Below, piece by piece: positions 1,325-26,825 of a DNA stretch of 64,000 bases; within the stretch, counting starts at the first letter, position 1, and every line of letters starts with the position of its first letter. A program made the translations under genes and the position numbers. The notes beneath the pieces were generated by a model, which had not been told where the DNA came from, searched no databases, and saw only the letters and a list, made by a program, of their open reading frames with translations. This stretch comes from a virus, in the IMG/VR virus record IMGVR_UViG_3300027963_000041, positions 1-64,000 of that record. The stretch is one strand, 5' to 3'.

Positions 1325-1398
1325 TGGGTTGTAGTCTAACGGTAGGACACCTGACTTTGACTCAGGTAGTTGTGGTTCGAATCCATACAGCCCAGCCA
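1325..1398 (+). tRNA. tRNA-Gln (UUG)
   Basis: Starts with T as is usual for tRNA-Gln. Acceptor TGGGTTG pairs with CAGCCCA, the anticodon stem is CCTGA/TCAGG with loop CTTTGAC (UUG), discriminator G, CCA encoded. Confidence 0.95.
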
Positions 1399-1405
1399 TT
1401 TTTAT

Positions 1406-1479
1406 GTTGTTCCTAGTGTAGTGGTCGCACACTTGTCTGTGAAACAAGTAGAGAGGGTTCGATTCCCCGGTTCAACCCA
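1406..1479 (+). tRNA. tRNA-His (GUG), acceptor stem with mismatches
   Basis: Anticodon stem CTTGT/ACAAG with loop CTGTGAA gives GUG. An extra 5' G faces discriminator C, as expected of tRNA-His. Two central acceptor positions are T-T mismatches and the T-stem is irregular (three G against four C). It may be slightly decayed or edited, although all arms can form. Confidence 0.78.
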
Positions 1480-1499
1480 CAATAACAAAGTAAATTTAT

Positions 1500-1574
1500 G
1501 CCTTGTTAACTCAGCGGTAGAGTGTCTCCCTTACAAGGAGAAGGTCGGCAGTTCGATCCTGTCACAAGGTACCA
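1500..1574 (+). tRNA. tRNA-Val (UAC)
   Basis: Acceptor GCCTTGT pairs with ACAAGGT (G-U at the end), the anticodon stem is TCTCC/GGAGA with loop CTTACAA, and the CCA end is encoded. Confidence 0.95.
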
Positions 1575-1578
1575 TTTA

Positions 1579-1652
1579 GCCCTCATAGTATAAAGGCATT
1601 ACACATCCTTGGTAAGGATGAAACACAGGATCGTTACCTGTTGAGGGCACCA
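1579..1652 (+). tRNA. tRNA-Thr (GGU)
   Basis: Acceptor GCCCTCA pairs perfectly with TGAGGGC. The anticodon stem is CATCC/GGATG with loop TTGGTAA. The T-loop (GATCGTTAC) departs from the usual TTCRA consensus. CCA is encoded. Confidence 0.9.
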
Positions 1653-1654
1653 GC

Positions 1655-1746
1655 GCCTCCATAGTTTAAGGGTAAAACGGCGGATTTATATCCCGTAAGC
1701 AACAGATAATTGGTTCATGTAGGTTCGAATCCTGCTGGAGGTACCA
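1655..1746 (+). tRNA. Unusual tRNA with long variable region (probable anticodon UAU)
   Basis: Acceptor GCCTCCA pairs with TGGAGGT, the D-stem is GTTT/AAAC, the T-arm is GTAGG/CCTGC with loop TTCGAAT, and CCA is encoded, so it is a tRNA gene. The anticodon stem is poor: GCGGA against CCCGT with one mismatch, loop TTTATAT, which reads as UAU (Ile). About 22 nt lie between anticodon stem and T-stem, which is class II length although Ile tRNAs are class I. The amino acid is uncertain. Confidence 0.7.
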
Positions 1747-1748
1747 TT

Positions 1749-1824
1749 GCCGCTTTAGCAAATGTGGTCATTGCACCGGTTTGAAGCACCGAGGAAGTTG
1801 GTTCGATCCCGACAGGCGGCACCA
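1749..1824 (+). tRNA. tRNA-Phe (GAA)
   Basis: Acceptor GCCGCTT pairs with AGGCGGC (one G-U), the anticodon loop is TTGAAGC in a CGGT/ACCG stem, discriminator A, CCA encoded. Confidence 0.9.
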
Positions 1825-1832
1825 GAATTTAC

Positions 1833-1907
1833 ACCGGATTAACTCAGCGGTAGAGTAATCGCTTGATAAGCGATAAGTCATTGGTTCGATCCCAATATCC
1901 GGTACCA
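1833..1907 (+). tRNA. tRNA-Ile (GAU)
   Basis: Acceptor ACCGGAT pairs with ATCCGGT, the anticodon stem is ATCGC/GCGAT with loop TTGATAA, and CCA is encoded. Confidence 0.95.
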
Positions 1908-1908
1908 T

Positions 1909-1986
1909 GCCCTACTAGACAAATTGGTAAAGTCATCTCTCTCAAAAGGAGAAGTTTTCTCTGTTCGAATCAGAGGTAGGGTACCA
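1909..1986 (+). tRNA. tRNA-Leu (CAA) with short variable loop
   Basis: Acceptor GCCCTAC pairs with GTAGGGT. The anticodon stem TCTCT/GGAGA has loop CTCAAAA, anticodon CAA. T-arm CTCTG/CAGAG, discriminator A, CCA encoded. Only six bases separate the anticodon stem and T-stem, whereas bacterial Leu tRNAs normally have a long class II arm. Confidence 0.85.
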
Positions 1987-1999
1987 AAAATAAATAATT

Positions 2000-2076
2000 G
2001 CCCAGGTGATGGAATTGGTATACATGTTAGTCTTAGAAACTAAATCTTGCGGGTTCGAGTCCCGCCTTGGGCACCA
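2000..2076 (+). tRNA. tRNA-Leu (UAG) with short variable loop
   Basis: Leu-like D-arm (GATGGAATTGGTATACA), anticodon stem TTAGT/ACTAA with loop CTTAGAA, T-arm GCGGG/CCCGC, A73 and encoded CCA. The variable loop is only ATCTT, so the gene is 77 nt long instead of about 85-90. Confidence 0.92.
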
Positions 2077-2081
2077 AATAA

Positions 2082-2171
2082 GGAAGTGTGGCAGAGTCCG
2101 GTTTATTGCACCTGTCTTGAAAACAGACGGCTCGAAAGGGTCCAAGAGTTCGAATCTCTTCGCTTCCGCCA
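2082..2171 (+). tRNA. tRNA-Ser (UGA)
   Basis: Class II tRNA with a proper long variable arm. Acceptor GGAAGTG pairs with CGCTTCC, loop CTTGAAA gives UGA, discriminator G, CCA encoded. Confidence 0.95.
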
Positions 2172-2191: not shown

Positions 2192-2220
2192 TTGACATTT
2201 ACATAGATACCTGATACAAT
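2192..2220 (+). promoter_or_regulatory. Sigma70-type promoter for the structured RNA / Ro-like transcript
   Basis: TTGACA (2192-2197), a 17-base spacer and TACAAT (2215-2220). Transcription would start near 2227, just before structured module A, and could run through modules B and C into the Ro-like gene at 2702. Confidence 0.8.
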
Positions 2221-2240: not shown

Positions 2241-2463
2241 GGGTTGGATTCAGCAATCTTTAACATAAAACGCTAAAGAACTGTCTTCTACAGGAGGACC
2301 ACCGCAAGGTGTGTAATTACGGAGACTAGAGAGTAAACTCGAATTAAATCTGACGCTGGAAAGACAGACAAGATGATGGTAGCCCATCTGATTACGGTAG
2401 GGTTTTTTTATCCGAAAGGAAGTACCGTGGTTTAAGAACCGATAATACTTACCCGACCAACCC
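2241..2463 (+). ncRNA. Structured RNA module A of a repeated family
   Basis: GGGTTGG (2241-2247) pairs perfectly with CCAACCC (2457-2463), closing a domain of about 220 nt. Just inside the 5' strand is the motif A-TTCAGCAA (2249-2256), also present in modules B and C. Local hairpins inside include CTGT/ACAG (2281-2293), CACC-GCAA-GGTG (2300-2311), AGATG/CATCT (2371-2389), ACGGTA/TACCGT (2394-2428) enclosing TCC-GAAA-GGA, and GGTT/AACC (2429-2440). No plausible gene lies here. Candidates are a Y-RNA-like partner of the downstream Ro-like protein or a large ornate phage RNA. Identity is unproven. Confidence 0.7.
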
Positions 2464-2484
2464 GATTTTATTTTGAAATGTTTT

Positions 2485-2599
2485 AGAATAGGTTCAGCAA
2501 CAAATTCAAACAGGCTTCAAGCCTGTTATACTTGGTCCGTTTCGGCGGACGACATGAGTTTCGAGTTCTCATGTAAATCAAAAAGAAGAAAACTATTCT
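2485..2599 (+). ncRNA. Structured RNA module B
   Basis: AGAATAG (2485-2491) pairs with CTATTCT (2593-2599). Directly inside is G-TTCAGCAA (2493-2500). Three consecutive hairpins follow: AACAGGC/GCCTGTT (2509-2527), GTCCG/CGGAC (2535-2550) and ACATGAG/CTCATGT (2552-2574). An A-rich strand precedes the 3' stem. The stem sequence differs from modules A and C while the motif is the same, which favours a conserved RNA shape. Confidence 0.7.
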
Positions 2600-2619
2600 G
2601 TTTTATCATGAAAGATTTT

Positions 2620-2679
2620 AGGTTAAGTTCAGCAAACTAAAAGCATTCAACTTGTAATTGAAAACGCAAAAATTAACCT
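2620..2679 (+). ncRNA. Structured RNA module C in the leader of the Ro-like gene
   Basis: AGGTTAA (2620-2626) pairs with TTAACCT (2673-2679). Inside lie G-TTCAGCAA (2628-2635) and one hairpin TTCAA/TTGAA (2646-2662, 7-nt loop). It ends about 22 bases before the start codon at 2702, so it could be an RNA partner processed from the leader, a binding site for autoregulation, or both. Confidence 0.65.
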
Positions 2680-2701
2680 GTTGTATTAAAGGAGTTATAC
2701 T

Positions 2702-4123
2702 ATGACAACATTTGTAGACGCAATAGTAAACCAAGAAGCCCGTACCGAGAATGGTATGAAGGCTCGTAAGTCAACCGCGAATGCAGTTGTAGACTTGTTC
2801 TATAACGCTGGCGCTTCTCGCGGTAAGAATATTGTGCCAGCATTTACTGCCGCAATGGCAGAGAACCGTGACCTTGCATTGCGTGTAGCCGCATGGCTTC
2901 GTGATGCCCGCGGTGGTGCTGGTGAACGCCAGTTGTTCCGCGACATTCTTGTGCATCTTGAGAAGACAGACCCTAATGCCGCAAAAGCATTACTCAAGAA
3001 AGTGCCTGAATTAGGTCGTTGGGATGACTTGTTTATCTTCAAGTCTAAAGAGTTGAAGAATGAAGCATACACTATGCTTGGTGATGCCTTGCGCCAGCGC
3101 AATGGACTTGCCGCAAAGTGGACACCTCGTCAAGGTCCTATCGCCGTAGAGATTCGTAATTTCTTCGGCATGTCTCCAAAGTTCTATCGTAAGTCTTTGG
3201 TCGAAATGACTAAAGTTGTAGAACAAAACATGTGTGCAAACACATGGGATGACATTAACTTTTCTCATGTACCTTCTGTTGCGTCTGCACGTTACAAGAA
3301 AGCATTCAACCGCAATACTGAAAAGTATGCAGAGTATGTTGCTTCCCTTGTGAAAGGCGACAATCCAGAAGTAAAGGTAAATGCATCCGTTGCATATCCA
3401 TACGATGTACTGAAAGGTCGCATCGGTGCATATGGAGTTACTTTTGACAAGACCGAATTGGACTTGATTCAAAAGCAATGGGAAGCATTGCCTAACTATG
3501 TTGGTGATGCAAGCATTCTACCTTTGGTAGATGTATCTGGCTCTATGACTACTTTAGCAGGAAAGAACACAAAACTTTCTTGCCTTGAAGTGGCAGTCTC
3601 TCTTGGTCTGTATCTTGCAGACAAGAACGCAGGTAAGTTCAAGGATACGTTCCTGACTTTCTCTGCAAAGCCAGAGTTGTTACACTTGAAGGGTAACATC
3701 AACCAGAAGATTGATCAAATGATTAAATCTAAATGGGATATGAACACTAACCTTCATGCCGCATTCAACAAGATTCTTGATGTTGCGGTGAAAGGCAATG
3801 TGCCACAAGAAGAAATGCCATCAATGGTATTGATTCTGTCTGACATGCAGTTTGACCAATGCGTAAAGCATGATAACTCTGCAATCGAAATGATTGAACG
3901 CAAGTATGAAGCCGCAGGATACAAAGTGCCACAAGTGGTGTTTTGGAATCTCAATGCATCATACGGTAACGCGCCAGTTAAGTTCGATAAGACTGGTACT
4001 GCGCTAGTGTCTGGATTCTCTCCAGCAATTGTGAAGCCACTCCTGTCGGGAGACATTGATAACTTCACGCCAGTATCGATCATGCTGAAAACCATCATGC
4101 AAGATCGTTACGCAGTTCTTTAA
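2702..4123 (+). CDS. Ro60/TROVE-like RNA-binding protein (DUF2828 type)
   Basis: A 473-residue protein. The N-terminal two thirds is helical, with LRDARGGAGERQLFR and a KKVPELGRWDDLF segment typical of the HEAT-like ring of TROVE/DUF2828 proteins. The C-terminal third is a von Willebrand A domain with the metal (MIDAS) motif DVSGS from Asp277 and a later LILSDMQFD strand. Ro proteins bind Y RNAs and damaged or misfolded RNAs; by homology this one should act in cytoplasmic RNA handling. AAAGGAG precedes the start. Promoter and modules A-C lie upstream, a further structured RNA downstream, and tRNA genes on both sides. This context supports an RNP function. Confidence 0.85.
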   Translation: MTTFVDAIVNQEARTENGMKARKSTANAVVDLFYNAGASRGKNIVPAFTAAMAENRDLALRVAAWLRDARGGAGERQLFRDILVHLEKTDPNAAKALLKKVPELGRWDDLFIFKSKELKNEAYTMLGDALRQRNGLAAKWTPRQGPIAVEIRNFFGMSPKFYRKSLVEMTKVVEQNMCANTWDDINFSHVPSVASARYKKAFNRNTEKYAEYVASLVKGDNPEVKVNASVAYPYDVLKGRIGAYGVTFDKTELDLIQKQWEALPNYVGDASILPLVDVSGSMTTLAGKNTKLSCLEVAVSLGLYLADKNAGKFKDTFLTFSAKPELLHLKGNINQKIDQMIKSKWDMNTNLHAAFNKILDVAVKGNVPQEEMPSMVLILSDMQFDQCVKHDNSAIEMIERKYEAAGYKVPQVVFWNLNASYGNAPVKFDKTGTALVSGFSPAIVKPLLSGDIDNFTPVSIMLKTIMQDRYAVL

Positions 4124-4153
4124 TTAGAACGATGAGGATTCGAAAGAGTCCTC

Positions 4154-4278
4154 ATTTAGAAACTTTTTGAGTGACTACAATGGAACACCTGAAATACTTG
4201 CAAATTCTAGATCAAGCAAGGACCAGCCATGAAGAGTAGGGTCATCACGGATTCAAGCGCCACAAAGAGTTTCTAAAT
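4154..4278 (+). ncRNA. Structured RNA with 16-bp closing stem downstream of the Ro-like gene
   Basis: ATTTAGAAACTTTTTG (4154-4169) pairs over all 16 positions (one G-U) with 4263-4278. Inside, CTTGC (4197-4201) pairs with GCAAG (4216-4220), and GTGACTAC (4171-4178) pairs in two halves with GTAG and TCAC (4236-4248). The pairing of both ends into one long stem resembles Y RNA architecture. It sits 30 bases after the Ro-like stop and ends 5 bases before tRNA-Gly. A 7-bp hairpin ATGAGGA/TCCTCAT (4132-4155) just upstream overlaps the stem by two bases. Confidence 0.65.
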
Positions 4279-4283
4279 GATAT

Positions 4284-4357
4284 GCGGGTATGATGTAATG
4301 GTAACCTGAAACCTTGCCAAGGTTTACTCGCGAGTTCGATTCTCGCTACCCGCTCCA
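4284..4357 (+). tRNA. tRNA-Gly (GCC)
   Basis: Acceptor GCGGGTA pairs with TACCCGC, the anticodon stem is AAACC/GGTTT with loop TTGCCAA, and CCA is encoded. Second Gly tRNA of the array. Confidence 0.95.
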
Positions 4358-4361
4358 ATTA

Positions 4362-4453
4362 GGTGAGATGCCCGAGAGGCCTAAGGGAGAAGTTTGCTAA
4401 ACTTTCGATTCACGAAAGTGGGTCCGTGGGTTCGAATCCCACTCTCACCACCA
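4362..4453 (+). tRNA. tRNA-Ser (GCU)
   Basis: Class II tRNA. Acceptor GGTGAGA pairs with TCTCACC, loop TTGCTAA gives GCU, a long variable arm and encoded CCA are present. Second Ser tRNA. Confidence 0.94.
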
Positions 4454-4482
4454 TTGACAATCTTGCGAGGTACTGTTATAAT
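4454..4482 (+). promoter_or_regulatory. Consensus sigma70 promoter
   Basis: TTGACA (4454-4459), 17 bases, TATAAT (4477-4482): a perfect consensus placed directly after the CCA of tRNA-Ser and 8 bases before tRNA-Leu. The tRNA would start almost at the transcription start. It also serves the metallophosphoesterase gene. Confidence 0.9.
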
Positions 4483-4489
4483 GAGTTAC

Positions 4490-4566
4490 GCGGATATGAT
4501 GGAATCGGTATACATATCAGACTTAAAATCTGAGTTTTGTGGGTTCGAGTCCCACTATCCGTACCA
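4490..4566 (+). tRNA. tRNA-Leu (UAA) with short variable loop
   Basis: Acceptor GCGGATA pairs with TATCCGT, the D-arm is Leu-like, the anticodon stem is TCAGA/TCTGA with loop CTTAAAA, T-arm GTGGG/CCCAC, A73, CCA encoded. The variable loop is GTTTT only. Third Leu isoacceptor of this reduced form. Confidence 0.93.
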
Positions 4567-4585
4567 ACTTAAAGGAAAAATAAAA

Positions 4586-5488
4586 ATGAGAATTGCAGTC
4601 TGTTCGGACATTCATCTTGAATTTGGTCCCATAGAATTAAAGAATACTGATAACGCTGACGTACTTATACTGTCTGGCGATATTTGCGTTGCTAAAGATT
4701 TGATGGAACGCGATAGTTATAATATTCGTGGTGATCATGATCGTTCAAACAAATATCACACCTTCTTTGAAGTTTGTGGTGTAGAGTTTCCTAAAGTCAT
4801 TTACATCATGGGTAATCATGAACACTACAATGGTGACTATGCCATTACGCATCGTGTTCTCAAAGAGCGCCTTGGCTACATCAAGAATCTTCATATTCTA
4901 GATAAAGAAACAGTTCGTATTGGCGAAGTGACTTTCATTGGTGGTACTCTTTGGACTGATATGAACAAAGAAGACCCCATGACTTTGCATAGCATTCGCA
5001 GAATGATGAATGACTTCCGTTGTGTAGAGAATAGTAACAACATGGTTTCATACAAAGTTCCCGAGTATGCGAAACTTGATAATGGTGAAATAGATTACTC
5101 AAATGTTGTGAAGACTACGTTCAAAGAGCGTCCTGCAACATTCACGCCTGAAGATGCGGTTGTAGATCACAAAGCAATGGTTGAATTCATTCGTCAAACA
5201 ATCGCTGAGAATCCTACGGATAAGTATGTTGTTGTTGGGCATCATGCGCCAAGCCGTACGTCAACCCATCCTCGTTATGCAAGAGAAGAATTGATGAATG
5301 GTGGATATAGTTCTAGTCTAGATGAATTTATTTTAGATAATTCTCAAATTAAACTGTGGACTCATGGACATACGCACGAAGACTTTGATTATATGATTGG
5401 TAGCACAAGAGTTGTTTGCAACCCTCGTGGCTATATCAACTACGAAGGTCGCGCAGATCATTTTGAATTAAAAACTTTTGAAATTTAA
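4586..5488 (+). CDS. Calcineurin-like metallophosphoesterase
   Basis: A 300-residue protein with the complete set of metal-binding blocks in order: SDIHLEF (Asp8, His10), SGDI (Asp32), MGNHEH, VGHHAPS and THGHTH. It should hydrolyse a phosphomono- or diester with a two-metal centre; the substrate is unknown. Phage relatives are sometimes linked to nucleic-acid or nucleotide turnover. The start at 4586 follows AAAGGAAAA. A longer reading frame beginning at 4394 runs back through the two tRNA genes and is not accepted. Transcription probably comes from the promoter at 4454. Confidence 0.88.
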   Translation: MRIAVCSDIHLEFGPIELKNTDNADVLILSGDICVAKDLMERDSYNIRGDHDRSNKYHTFFEVCGVEFPKVIYIMGNHEHYNGDYAITHRVLKERLGYIKNLHILDKETVRIGEVTFIGGTLWTDMNKEDPMTLHSIRRMMNDFRCVENSNNMVSYKVPEYAKLDNGEIDYSNVVKTTFKERPATFTPEDAVVDHKAMVEFIRQTIAENPTDKYVVVGHHAPSRTSTHPRYAREELMNGGYSSSLDEFILDNSQIKLWTHGHTHEDFDYMIGSTRVVCNPRGYINYEGRADHFELKTFEI

Positions 5489-23838: not shown

Positions 23839-24106
23839 AAAGCACAAAGAGATTATGAGTATTGCACAGGAAGAATGTGCAGAGGTGATTCAAGCCATCA
23901 GCAAAATTTTTAGATTCGGATTAGATGAATCATTCGAAGGTAGAACAAATCGCGAAAGATTGACAAGTGAACTCGGCGATCTTCAATGCATGATTACACT
24001 ACTTAAACAATATGAAGTGGTTGATGATTTTAAAGTGCATCAAGCCGAACTTGTAAAAAGAACTCGCCTTAGCAAGTGGTCAAACATTTTCACCGAGGTG
24101 CAATAG
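23813..24106 (+). CDS. MazG-like nucleotide pyrophosphohydrolase
   Basis: A 97-98-residue all-helical protein: EIMSIAQEECAEVIQAISKI (E-x-x-E metal-binding helix) and RLTSELGDLQCMITLL (ExxD helix). These are the two metal-binding helices of MazG/phosphoribosyl-ATP pyrophosphohydrolase-like enzymes. Likely hydrolyses an NTP or (p)ppGpp-like nucleotide. Start 23813 or 23816; it overlaps the exonuclease gene by 26 bases. Confidence 0.8.
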   Translation: MMNNYYLDEKHKEIMSIAQEECAEVIQAISKIFRFGLDESFEGRTNRERLTSELGDLQCMITLLKQYEVVDDFKVHQAELVKRTRLSKWSNIFTEVQ

Positions 24107-24124
24107 TAATTGTGCGCTAAATAT

Positions 24125-24192
24125 TAAGATGACTGTATGAAGTTAACCGAAAGGTGTTCTGGACGGGGGTGCGAATCCCCCCACCTCCACCA
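24125..24192 (+). ncRNA. ssrA: Permuted tmRNA, acceptor (3') piece
   Basis: GGAC, then a perfect T-stem GGGGG/CCCCC around loop TGCGAAT, then CACCTCC-ACCA (24182-24192). CACCTCC pairs with GGGGGTG at 24271-24277 (one G-U), building the acceptor stem with the downstream coding piece. GTTAACC (24142-24148) and TGTA (24134-24137) pair with GGTAAC (24292-24297) and TACG (24301-24304), forming helix P2. The acceptor part thus precedes the coding part, as in circularly permuted tmRNA genes. The 5' boundary is approximate. Confidence 0.85.
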
Positions 24193-24270
24193 AAAACGCA
24201 TCTGCCAGTCGCTCTGGTTGTATGGTACTATTCTAGAAATGAGGTTCAAGTCCTTTGGTGCGTTTTTGAT
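24193..24270 (+). other. tmRNA internal spacer, tRNA-like hairpin
   Basis: Between the CCA of the acceptor piece and the mature 5' G of the coding piece. AAAACGCATC (24193-24202) pairs with GGTGCGTTTT (24257-24266). Inside are a CCAG/CTGG arm and a T-arm-like GGTTCAAGTCC, but no acceptable anticodon arm. Expected to be removed during processing; the tRNA-like form could recruit RNase P or RNase Z. Confidence 0.65.
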
Positions 24271-24500
24271 GGGGGTGCATAGTTTCGACAGGGTAACAAG
24301 TACGAAGATGGACAGTCCGGTAGATGACGACCGTAAATCGCATAAAAAAAGTAAACGCAAACGATGAAAAGTTCGCATTGGCAGCCTAAACGCTGACTAG
24401 GGTTTCGGTGAGTTTCCTCGTAACAGAATAACTCACCACTAATTTTGGATAGTTGTAATCTGCGGCAACACCCGTTAGGCAGACCTAACTTTGGATTGCT
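24271..24500 (+). ncRNA. ssrA: Permuted tmRNA, coding piece with tag ANDEKFALAA
   Basis: Begins GGGGGTGCATAGTTTCGACA, the conserved tmRNA 5' end with the D-arm-like TTTCGACAG. The resume frame at 24357-24389 encodes ANDEKFALAA and TAA, matching proteobacterial tags such as E. coli ANDENYALAA. Downstream hairpins GGTGAGTT/AACTCACC (24407-24437) and GTTAGG/CCTAAC (24474-24489) are candidates for the later helices and pseudoknots. tmRNA rescues stalled ribosomes and tags the product for ClpXP. The 3' boundary is uncertain. Confidence 0.92.
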
Positions 24501-26240: not shown

Positions 26241-26825
26241 ATGAGCAAAGAAACAGGCAAATCAACTTTACGCAGATTCCACGACATTCGCTTTTCTACG
26301 CGATACTTTATTGGTAATGGCATCGACATTGGTGCTGGTGACGATCCACTCTCAGACTACTCAGAATTCTTCCCACTCATTAAATCATTACGCCCTTGGG
26401 ATATGCCAGATGGCGATGCACAATTTATGCATGGCGTAAAAGATGACACATATGACTTTGTACATTCAAGTCATTGTTTAGAACATGTTCGCGATCCAAA
26501 AGTTACACTCGGCAACTGGATTCGCATTTGCAAACCAGGCGGCTATCTTGTTCTTGTTATACCAGACGAAGACTTATACGAACAAGGCGTTTTTCCATCC
26601 ACATTCAATGGCGCACATCTATGGACATATACCATTAAGAAGAATGCATCGTGGTGTGACAGGTCGGTAAATGTGTTCGATTTATTATCAAATTTTGTTG
26701 ACAAAGTACAAGTAAATAAAGTAGAATTACTAGATGCAACATTTCGATATAACAAACCTAGGTTCGATCAAACTGATAAATCATTCGGTGATTGTGCCAT
26801 AGAAATAATTCTCAAGAAACTATGA
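26241..26825 (+). CDS. SAM-dependent methyltransferase (type 11-like)
   Basis: A 194-residue protein with motif I IDIGAGDDPLSD, acidic motif DMPDGDAQF, TYDFVHSSHCLEHVRDPKVTL and the post-motif KPGGYLVLVIPDEDLYE. This is a Rossmann-fold methyltransferase of the kind found in surface-sugar clusters. It heads the sugar cassette, so a sugar or glycan target is inferred. AAAGGATACATC precedes the start at 26241. Confidence 0.8.
   Translation: MSKETGKSTLRRFHDIRFSTRYFIGNGIDIGAGDDPLSDYSEFFPLIKSLRPWDMPDGDAQFMHGVKDDTYDFVHSSHCLEHVRDPKVTLGNWIRICKPGGYLVLVIPDEDLYEQGVFPSTFNGAHLWTYTIKKNASWCDRSVNVFDLLSNFVDKVQVNKVELLDATFRYNKPRFDQTDKSFGDCAIEIILKKL

Follow-up and report, generated by a model that had tools for sequence, protein, structure and literature searches.

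A Ro-like DUF2828 protein and its neighbouring small RNAs in a phage tRNA array: a candidate Ro/Y-type RNP

Described Ro-type particles and related small RNAs

Ro60, an autoimmune antigen in humans, and the Y RNAs are the basis of the analogy, used throughout this work, in which a small RNA is divided into a handle and an effector part. Bacterial Y RNAs have been viewed as tRNA mimics and tethers, a view cited in the sections of PMC12282133 that we drew on. In phages, a jumbo-phage survey names ROT/TROVE proteins (PMC7824862), a Ro60-related protein has been reported from a Vibrio jumbo phage (PMC7765460), and solved structures of the Ro60 of Thermus phage phiLo exist (PDB 9L5Y and 9KOP). For Listeria phage CKA15, the same sections of PMC12282133 propose an Rsr-like protein together with Y RNAs and cite Y RNAs of mycobacteriophages. 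Neither Ro-like proteins of phages nor the notion of Y RNAs in phages is new.

Another group of small RNAs has been described from social amoebae. The Class I RNAs, described as unique to dictyostelids, are about 60 nt long and have the ends AAG and CUGU, a covarying stem and a motif after its 5' strand (Kjellin et al., PMC7919456). They are multicopy, with a variable interior and compensatory changes in the stem, and their function is reported as unknown (PMC7919456). In the open-access literature, which was the scope of our search (subscription papers and preprints lay outside it), we found no description of the stem-plus-NNCNGCAA RNA family reported below or of its link to Class I RNAs.

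The protein gene and the RNAs beside it

The window, that is, the whole stretch of 64,000 nucleotides analysed here, belongs to a 143-kb virus record. The locus under study has the following features:

1325 to 2171, plus strand: ten tRNA genes (Gln, His, Val, Thr, Ile, Phe, Ile, Leu, Leu, Ser), directly upstream of the gene
2192 to 2220, plus strand: putative sigma70-like promoter TTGACA-17-TACAAT, 11/12 positions with TG before the -10, a consensus match only
2241 to 2463, plus strand: RNA 1, about 223 nt; closing stem GGGUUGG/CCAACCC, then A-UUCAGCAA and a large structured interior
2481 to 2604, plus strand: RNA 2, about 115 nt with U-rich flanks; UUUUAG-AAUAG-G-UUCAGCAA ... CUAUUCUGUU
2616 to 2684, plus strand: RNA 3, about 60 nt, of the short type; UUUUAG-GUUAA-G-UUCAGCAA ... 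UUAACCUGUUGU
2702 to 4123, plus strand: Ro-like protein (by predicted fold) of 473 aa; helical (HEAT-like) ring region at residues ~27-260, vWA domain at residues ~268-454, complete MIDAS
4131 to 4156, plus strand: conserved, terminator-like hairpin immediately 3' of the gene
4157 to 4275, plus strand: closed RNA of a second type, without the UNCNGCAA motif (z = -4.0)
4284 to 4566, plus strand: tRNA genes Gly, Ser and Leu, downstream of the gene

The open reading frame spans 2702-4123 exactly, and profile searches place its 473-residue product in DUF2828 (PF11443, 78.1 bits against a cut-off of 29) and in DUF7788 (PF25043, 171.9 bits against a cut-off of 27.1); it also matches phrog_850, labelled 'RNA-binding protein', at E = 1.4e-141. 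The original prediction, made from the letters of the window, was of a DUF2828-type protein with a HEAT-like ring, a von Willebrand domain and DVSGS, and this description was borne out. The sequence DVSGSM occupies residues 277-282, and the MIDAS residues D277, S279, S281, T349 and D381, in the arrangement DxSxS...T...D, are invariant in 29 homologues. A structure model built from 22 homologues (window and IMG/VR sequences; pLDDT 73.5, pTM 0.73), weak at residues 1-25 and in parts of 186-230, predicts a ring of helical repeats closed by the vWA domain. Searching the PDB with this model, Foldseek gave three matches below 0.001, namely 9KOP (a TROVE domain), 9L5Y (the phiLo Ro60) and 1YVR (the Ro autoantigen). 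With VIA-align the ten best PDB matches were all Ro or TROVE structures (Z 17.1 to 12.0, 353-395 residues aligned), including 9KOP at 17.1, 9L5Y at 15.5, 1YVR at 14.5 and Rsr, 2NVO, at 12.4; structures consisting of a vWA domain only ranked next, with a Z of 10.7 at most.

The designation Ro60/TROVE-like holds for the predicted fold but fails at the level of sequence. Searched with the TROVE profile PF05731, the genome of the window gave nothing at E <= 1, and the positive control of this search, Deinobacterium chartae, scored over the cut-off. Comparison of the protein with the PDB by phmmer returned no match and its profile reached Ro60 chains at E = 0.1-0.3 only, so the link to Ro rests on the fold. 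Given Ro/TROVE structures as the top matches and a negative PF05731 search, we therefore assign the protein a predicted Ro60 architecture within a sequence family other than TROVE. The DUF2828 gene itself is not rare, since it is present in 677 of 50,697 phage records from diverse hosts. NCBIfam and PADLOC gave no match for the locus, so that assignment to a known defence system is unsupported.

The absence of TROVE sequence similarity would also suit a protein of general vWA/HEAT type, such as a structural component of the virion, with a superficial resemblance to Ro. The family member CKA15_055 was indeed recovered from purified virions with 57% coverage, as stated in the cited sections of PMC12282133, and some phage records label the DUF2828 gene as a structural protein. 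This reading is nevertheless quite unlikely: full-length Ro60 matches outrank all other folds, the gene is coupled to RNAs of which some are YrlA-like, and presence in the virion is compatible with a role in an RNP. Together with the structural labels, the virion finding, as given in those sections, makes delivery of the DUF2828 protein with the particle possible.

As predicted, the gene lies between tRNA genes, all of them on its own strand, and structured RNA lies on both sides of it: none of 200 shuffles folded as well as 2478-2605 (z = -4.07) and none of 200 as well as 4120-4284 (z = -4.01). The 530 bases between the end of tRNA-Ser (2171) and the gene are non-coding and open with the putative promoter, just upstream of RNA 1. 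The closed RNA at 4157-4275, which has no NNCNGCAA signal, has relatives at other positions in related loci (L004 1572, L053 1554, L023 1605, L079 4343, L002 239). The two-piece tmRNA expected elsewhere in the window is a permuted one at 24100-24480 (Rfam tmRNA_permuted, E = 3.9e-27); its predicted tag is ANDEKFALAA, and Rfam's beta_tmRNA matches it too. A perfect sigma70 consensus promoter, TTGACA-17-TATAAT, lies at 4454-4482 between tRNA-Ser and tRNA-Leu. An RNase H-like gene (PF04308) is found near the DUF2828 gene at 848-1318 in the window and at 4482-5012 of the KVP40 locus (L209). RNA ligase or tRNA-splicing ligase genes lie 0.5-2 kb from DUF2828 in Serratia BF (L206 1319-2578) and Listeria List-36 (L213 5810-7021), a hint of RNA repair neighbourhoods.

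The three tandem RNAs upstream of the gene follow a common plan, in which a stem joins the two ends, a motif comes directly after its 5' strand and the interior is variable. Each is marked by a copy of TTCAGCAA one base inside the closing helix, which is GGGUUGG/CCAACCC in RNA 1, AGAAUAG/CUAUUCU in RNA 2 and AGGUUAA/UUAACCU in RNA 3. The interior of RNA 2 forms three hairpins, one with a T-loop-like UUUCGAGUU loop. A covariance model, R2, derived from short phage copies, matched RNA 2 at E = 1.4e-7 and RNA 3 at E = 6.7e-18; RNA 1, without canonical outer ends, was below its threshold, and the canonical ends UAGGAUGG...CCAUCCUG are present in relatives of this long type. Over the whole window TTCAGCAA occurs 9 times against 4.6 expected, which is not clearly enriched, and it was dropped as a genome-wide signal. 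What gives weight to the three copies in the 388 nt before the gene is their placement: each marks the inner edge of its closing stem, and elements arranged in this way recur upstream of the gene in 74 of 79 related loci. An Rfam search of the region upstream of the gene gave nothing over threshold; PhrS, SAM-II and similar matches below it were taken as chance.

A covarying RNA family coupled to DUF2828 genes

The TTCAGCAA motif singled out by the original prediction turned out to be the conserved core of an RNA family. Elements of this family occur upstream of the gene in those 74 of 79 related viral loci; we counted 138 there, and the two controls, the opposite strand and the gene bodies, yielded 1 each. 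When elements were picked by their 5' end alone (UUUUAG-N6-UNCNGCAA, no stem required), the complementary strand followed by CUG was found within 320 nt in 265 of 292, as compared to 8.5% when the stem of another element was used and 5.6% for UUUUAG without the motif. In a set chosen for pairing, the covariation score was 0.951 against 0.199 when shuffled, with 5 of 6 pairs varying on both sides, and it fell to 0.19 or less when the partner strand was shifted by 1-3 bases; a bacterial set, also chosen for pairing, scored 0.700 against 0.229. The recovery of 265/292 against 8.5% and the covariation of 0.951 against 0.199 demonstrate that the stem-plus-motif elements form a real RNA family with a covarying stem. 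The family is new and absent from Rfam, in which no family reaches threshold on these RNAs.

We collected 420 distinct copies, almost all from viral contigs, with 104 different stem pairs that include compensatory changes. The stem has 6-8 bp, starting with AG on the 5' side and ending in UG on the 3' side, and leads into a single-stranded N-N-C-N-G-C-A-A that is usually UUCAGCAA or UACAGCAA; the AG and CTG ends and the C, G, C, A, A of the motif were required by the scan, and the T that comes next (90%) was not. U-rich flanks recur outside the stem, as UUUUAG at the 5' end and CUGUU at the 3' end. About half of the copies measure 50-69 nt, and the others fall into a class of 90-129 nt and a longer one. 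Among 125 copies of 90-129 nt, 95 have a GTTCRAN T loop and 16 also have D-arm sequence; a pattern search of the relatives found the T loop in about 110 elements and both arms in 17. Some of these have the permuted order of T arm, hairpin and D arm, and others the D arm, anticodon-like arm and T arm of a normal tRNA. One element of 201 nt in a viral contig (L141 5477-5677) combines a permuted-tRNA-like interior with a very long extended acceptor-like stem.

Copies that are repeated and dispersed and have complementary ends could, in principle, be mobile DNA or recombination sites with inverted ends. We find this scarcely credible for elements that show 104 stem pairs with compensatory changes, a conserved single-stranded signal and a strand bias, and whose interiors include tRNA-like folds; nor do the elements share a sequence able to move as one piece.

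The comparison with Ro60 and Y RNAs shows both likenesses and differences. The locus shares the ring-plus-vWA fold (predicted here) and the MIDAS with Ro60/Rsr (TROVE) RNPs, gene-linked small RNAs with their two ends paired with Y RNAs, and, in part of the RNAs, a permuted tRNA mimic with the T arm before the D arm with YrlA. Unlike Ro60/TROVE, the phage protein is DUF2828/DUF7788 by sequence, and unlike known Y RNAs, its RNAs number several per locus, are in many cases about 55-60 nt long and are set in phage tRNA arrays. None of the Rfam Y RNA models reached threshold on the stem-plus-NNCNGCAA RNAs. The YrlA model RF02553 aligned end to end with one copy (L010, 37.5 bits) and reached at best 39.6 of the 69 bits of its gathering score in the relatives; it had no match to the window RNAs, in which the T-loop-like hairpin of RNA 2 is the only tRNA-like arm. 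Since these scores are sub-threshold and RF02553 also matches 9 of 14 control genomes at E <= 0.01, probably through tRNA arms, we treat YrlA as a resemblance and rejected formal membership.

The expected co-occurrence of the gene with structured RNAs and tRNA arrays extends beyond the upstream elements: a tRNA lies within 2.5 kb of the gene in 72 of 80 relatives, in which all 1186 of 1186 tRNAs share its strand. The RNAs adjoin the DUF2828 gene or sit in the tRNA array in most of the DUF2828 phages tested. R2, whose training set held copies from two of the named phages (BUCT-ZZ01 and APT65), matched 16 of 19 named DUF2828 phages at E <= 0.05, among them Vibrio KVP40, Stenotrophomonas DLP6, Citrobacter Ci1, Listeria List-36 and Staphylococcus SEP9, and matched none of the five control phages (T4, phiKZ, SPO1, the tRNA-rich T5, and F10) at E <= 1. 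A relaxed scan added two elements in Enterococcus TJE1; in mycobacteriophage LeBron and one Twort-like phage, which have the gene, neither R2 nor the relaxed scan recognised an element. Viral loci fetched by the 5' motif alone held full elements in 92 of 119 cases, with up to seven per locus, and the DUF2828 gene was within the locus in 37. Sixteen of 21 whole records, some of them drawn from loci already known to hold the gene, encode DUF2828, several outside the RNA-bearing locus; the RNA-bearing contigs that lack the gene are fragments.

In the sequence records examined, the elements are unannotated or overlapped by small hypothetical proteins. Salmonella phage FO1a has a gene-free stretch after gp42 (L210 4380-5877) with four unannotated elements between tRNAs. 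In Campylobacter phage CP81, ORF140 (L211 2861-2998), annotated as a small hypothetical protein, is probably no gene because it overlaps an RNA element; a second element lies just upstream.

Most relatives resemble the window in that the elements stand a few hundred bases before the start codon on the same strand, where they might act in cis as leaders that regulate DUF2828 translation or transcription (autoregulation), with no separate RNAs. We consider such leaders unlikely, however, since elements are found downstream of the gene in FO1a and SEP9, about 7 kb from it in KVP40 (inside the tRNA array; R2 E = 1.5e-13) and about 10 kb from it in Cronobacter S13, form arrays of up to seven in viral loci without the gene, and occur as 2-5 tandem copies with different interiors.

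The locus had been taken for a phage RNA system, but the pair of gene and RNA is also present on bacterial chromosomes, so that the system is not specific to phages. We examined 80 chromosomal or MAG DUF2828 loci, from Ruminococcus, Lachnospiraceae, Akkermansia, Chloroflexi, a Woesearchaeote and others, some of which may be phage contigs in MAG bins, and found 79 elements on the gene strand in 44 of the 80 as compared to 7 on the other strand. All 38 R2 matches in bacterial/MAG loci were on the gene strand, and relaxed rules applied to 68 of these loci gave 106 gene-strand versus 12 opposite elements. The bacterial elements, which include some T-arm copies, often lie 2-5 in tandem within about 800 bases upstream. 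In 119 genomes of one family, a bacterial model, R3, had matches in 8, all among the 10 that are DUF7788-positive, and all 19 matches were at the DUF2828/DUF7788 locus (p ~ 6e-11 for co-occurrence); its training sequences may partly come from these 119 genomes, and the 109 negatives are independent of that. The bacterial loci also bear on another reading, suggested by the mixing of elements and tRNA genes in phages: that the elements serve tRNA arrays as spacers or processing signals and have nothing to do with the Ro-like protein. This is highly improbable, as the elements of bacterial chromosomes are confined to the DUF2828 locus (8 of 8 genomes) and T5, rich in tRNAs, had no match, nor had T4, phiKZ, SPO1 or F10.

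The CKA15 proposal, as set out in the cited sections of PMC12282133, involves the same protein family (CKA15_055), a position near tRNAs and Y RNAs; it differs in that its RNAs, CKA15_059-061, lie in a different region. Elements of the stem-plus-motif family lie directly upstream of CKA15_055, and the passages of PMC12282133 drawn on here make no mention of them. By the account in those passages, CKA15_059 and 060 are non-coding and hyperabundant, with about 67% of phage transcripts at 40 min. They are about 1 kb from the stem-plus-motif elements, and their coordinates rule them out as members of the family. The CKA15_059-061 region (L307 2913-3223; cka15 26388-26698) is a separate, unexplained RNA region; Rfam gave no match for it except for tRNAs in the stretch of List-36 that corresponds to it.

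Class I RNAs and a reading of the locus

The short phage RNAs resemble the Class I RNAs (RF01414) in their end-joining stem with compensatory changes, variable interior, length of about 60 nt and multiple copies; in part, they also appear alike in the motif directly after the 5' strand (CCUUACAGCAA versus NNUUCAGCAA/UUACAGCAA) and in the ends AAG...CUGU. Unlike Class I RNAs, phage copies also occur in longer, tRNA-like forms, and the known binder of Class I RNA in Dictyostelium is an RRM protein (Rnp1A/Cibp). The DUSE promoter found about 60 nt upstream of Class I RNA is eukaryotic and is not expected in phages. We found that the amoebal model RF01414 aligns end to end with the phage RNAs, stem on stem and CUUACAGCAA on UUU-CAGCAA. 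Its gathering score was not reached (best 34.5 of 41.5 bits), and the best E values per record were 3.6e-6, 1.4e-5, 1.7e-5 and 2.8e-5. The best match coincided with an independently found element in 8 of the 8 named phages that had a match, and in the Woesearchaeote MAG it fell on the element that precedes DUF2828 by about 130 bases (E = 2.2e-4). RF01414 also gave a false positive in T4 at E = 0.0024; matches near 0.002 are therefore not trusted on their own, and the argument rests on positional coincidence with the independent models.

Class I motif positions C6, C9, A10 and A11 match, and only their recurrence counts since the scan required C, G, C, A and A; at position T3 the phage copies mostly have G, and otherwise T or A. 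The ends are mostly UAG...CUGUU in phages and AAG or AAAGG...CUUGU in bacteria and some phages, AG and CTG being required by the scan. A literature search for DUF2828 in Dictyostelium gave nothing usable. Because the scores are below the cut-off and T4 yielded a false positive at 0.0024, sequence comparison makes homology of the short phage RNAs with Class I RNA a strong lead, not an established relationship. We propose only tentatively, and with more doubt than confidence, that the RNAs of phages and bacteria and the Class I RNAs of dictyostelids belong to a single family, whose members are partners of DUF2828-type Ro-like rings.

Taken together, we read the locus, with a probability of roughly 0.78, as encoding a Ro/Y-type RNP composed of a DUF2828/DUF7788 ring-plus-vWA protein and dedicated small RNAs; from the analogy with Ro60 and Y RNAs we infer direct protein-RNA binding, a division of labour within the RNA and a biological role. 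The RNAs would be small and trans-acting, transcribed beside the gene or among tRNA genes. Their stem and signal may be the handle that the protein recognises, the counterpart of the stem by which Y RNAs bind Ro. The variable interior, be it a set of hairpins, a T-loop arm or a tRNA-like fold in permuted or normal order, would act as the effector part, tethering partner proteins or regulating access to the ring in the way described for bacterial Y RNAs. The position of the locus among tRNA genes suggests that tRNAs or other stable RNAs are handled in infection, and the likely role would be to deal with RNA that is structured or damaged while the phage multiplies, above all with tRNAs. That the protein guards phage tRNAs and tmRNA against host nucleases, as was first suggested, is a guess.

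The DUF2828 family, annotated as being of unknown function, gains a candidate RNA partner family in phages, bacteria and an archaeal MAG, and these partner RNAs follow simple sequence rules. Next to the TROVE/Y RNA class, the system would constitute a second class of Ro-type RNPs, set apart by an RNA signature of its own, and tRNA-rich phages are shown to carry many such RNAs. For the Dictyostelium Class I RNAs, our findings offer a concrete hypothesis for function and protein partner. If the proposed kinship is true, Class I RNAs, regarded so far as exclusive to social amoebae and linked to their multicellularity, would turn out to be Y-like RNAs that have relatives in prokaryotes and viruses.
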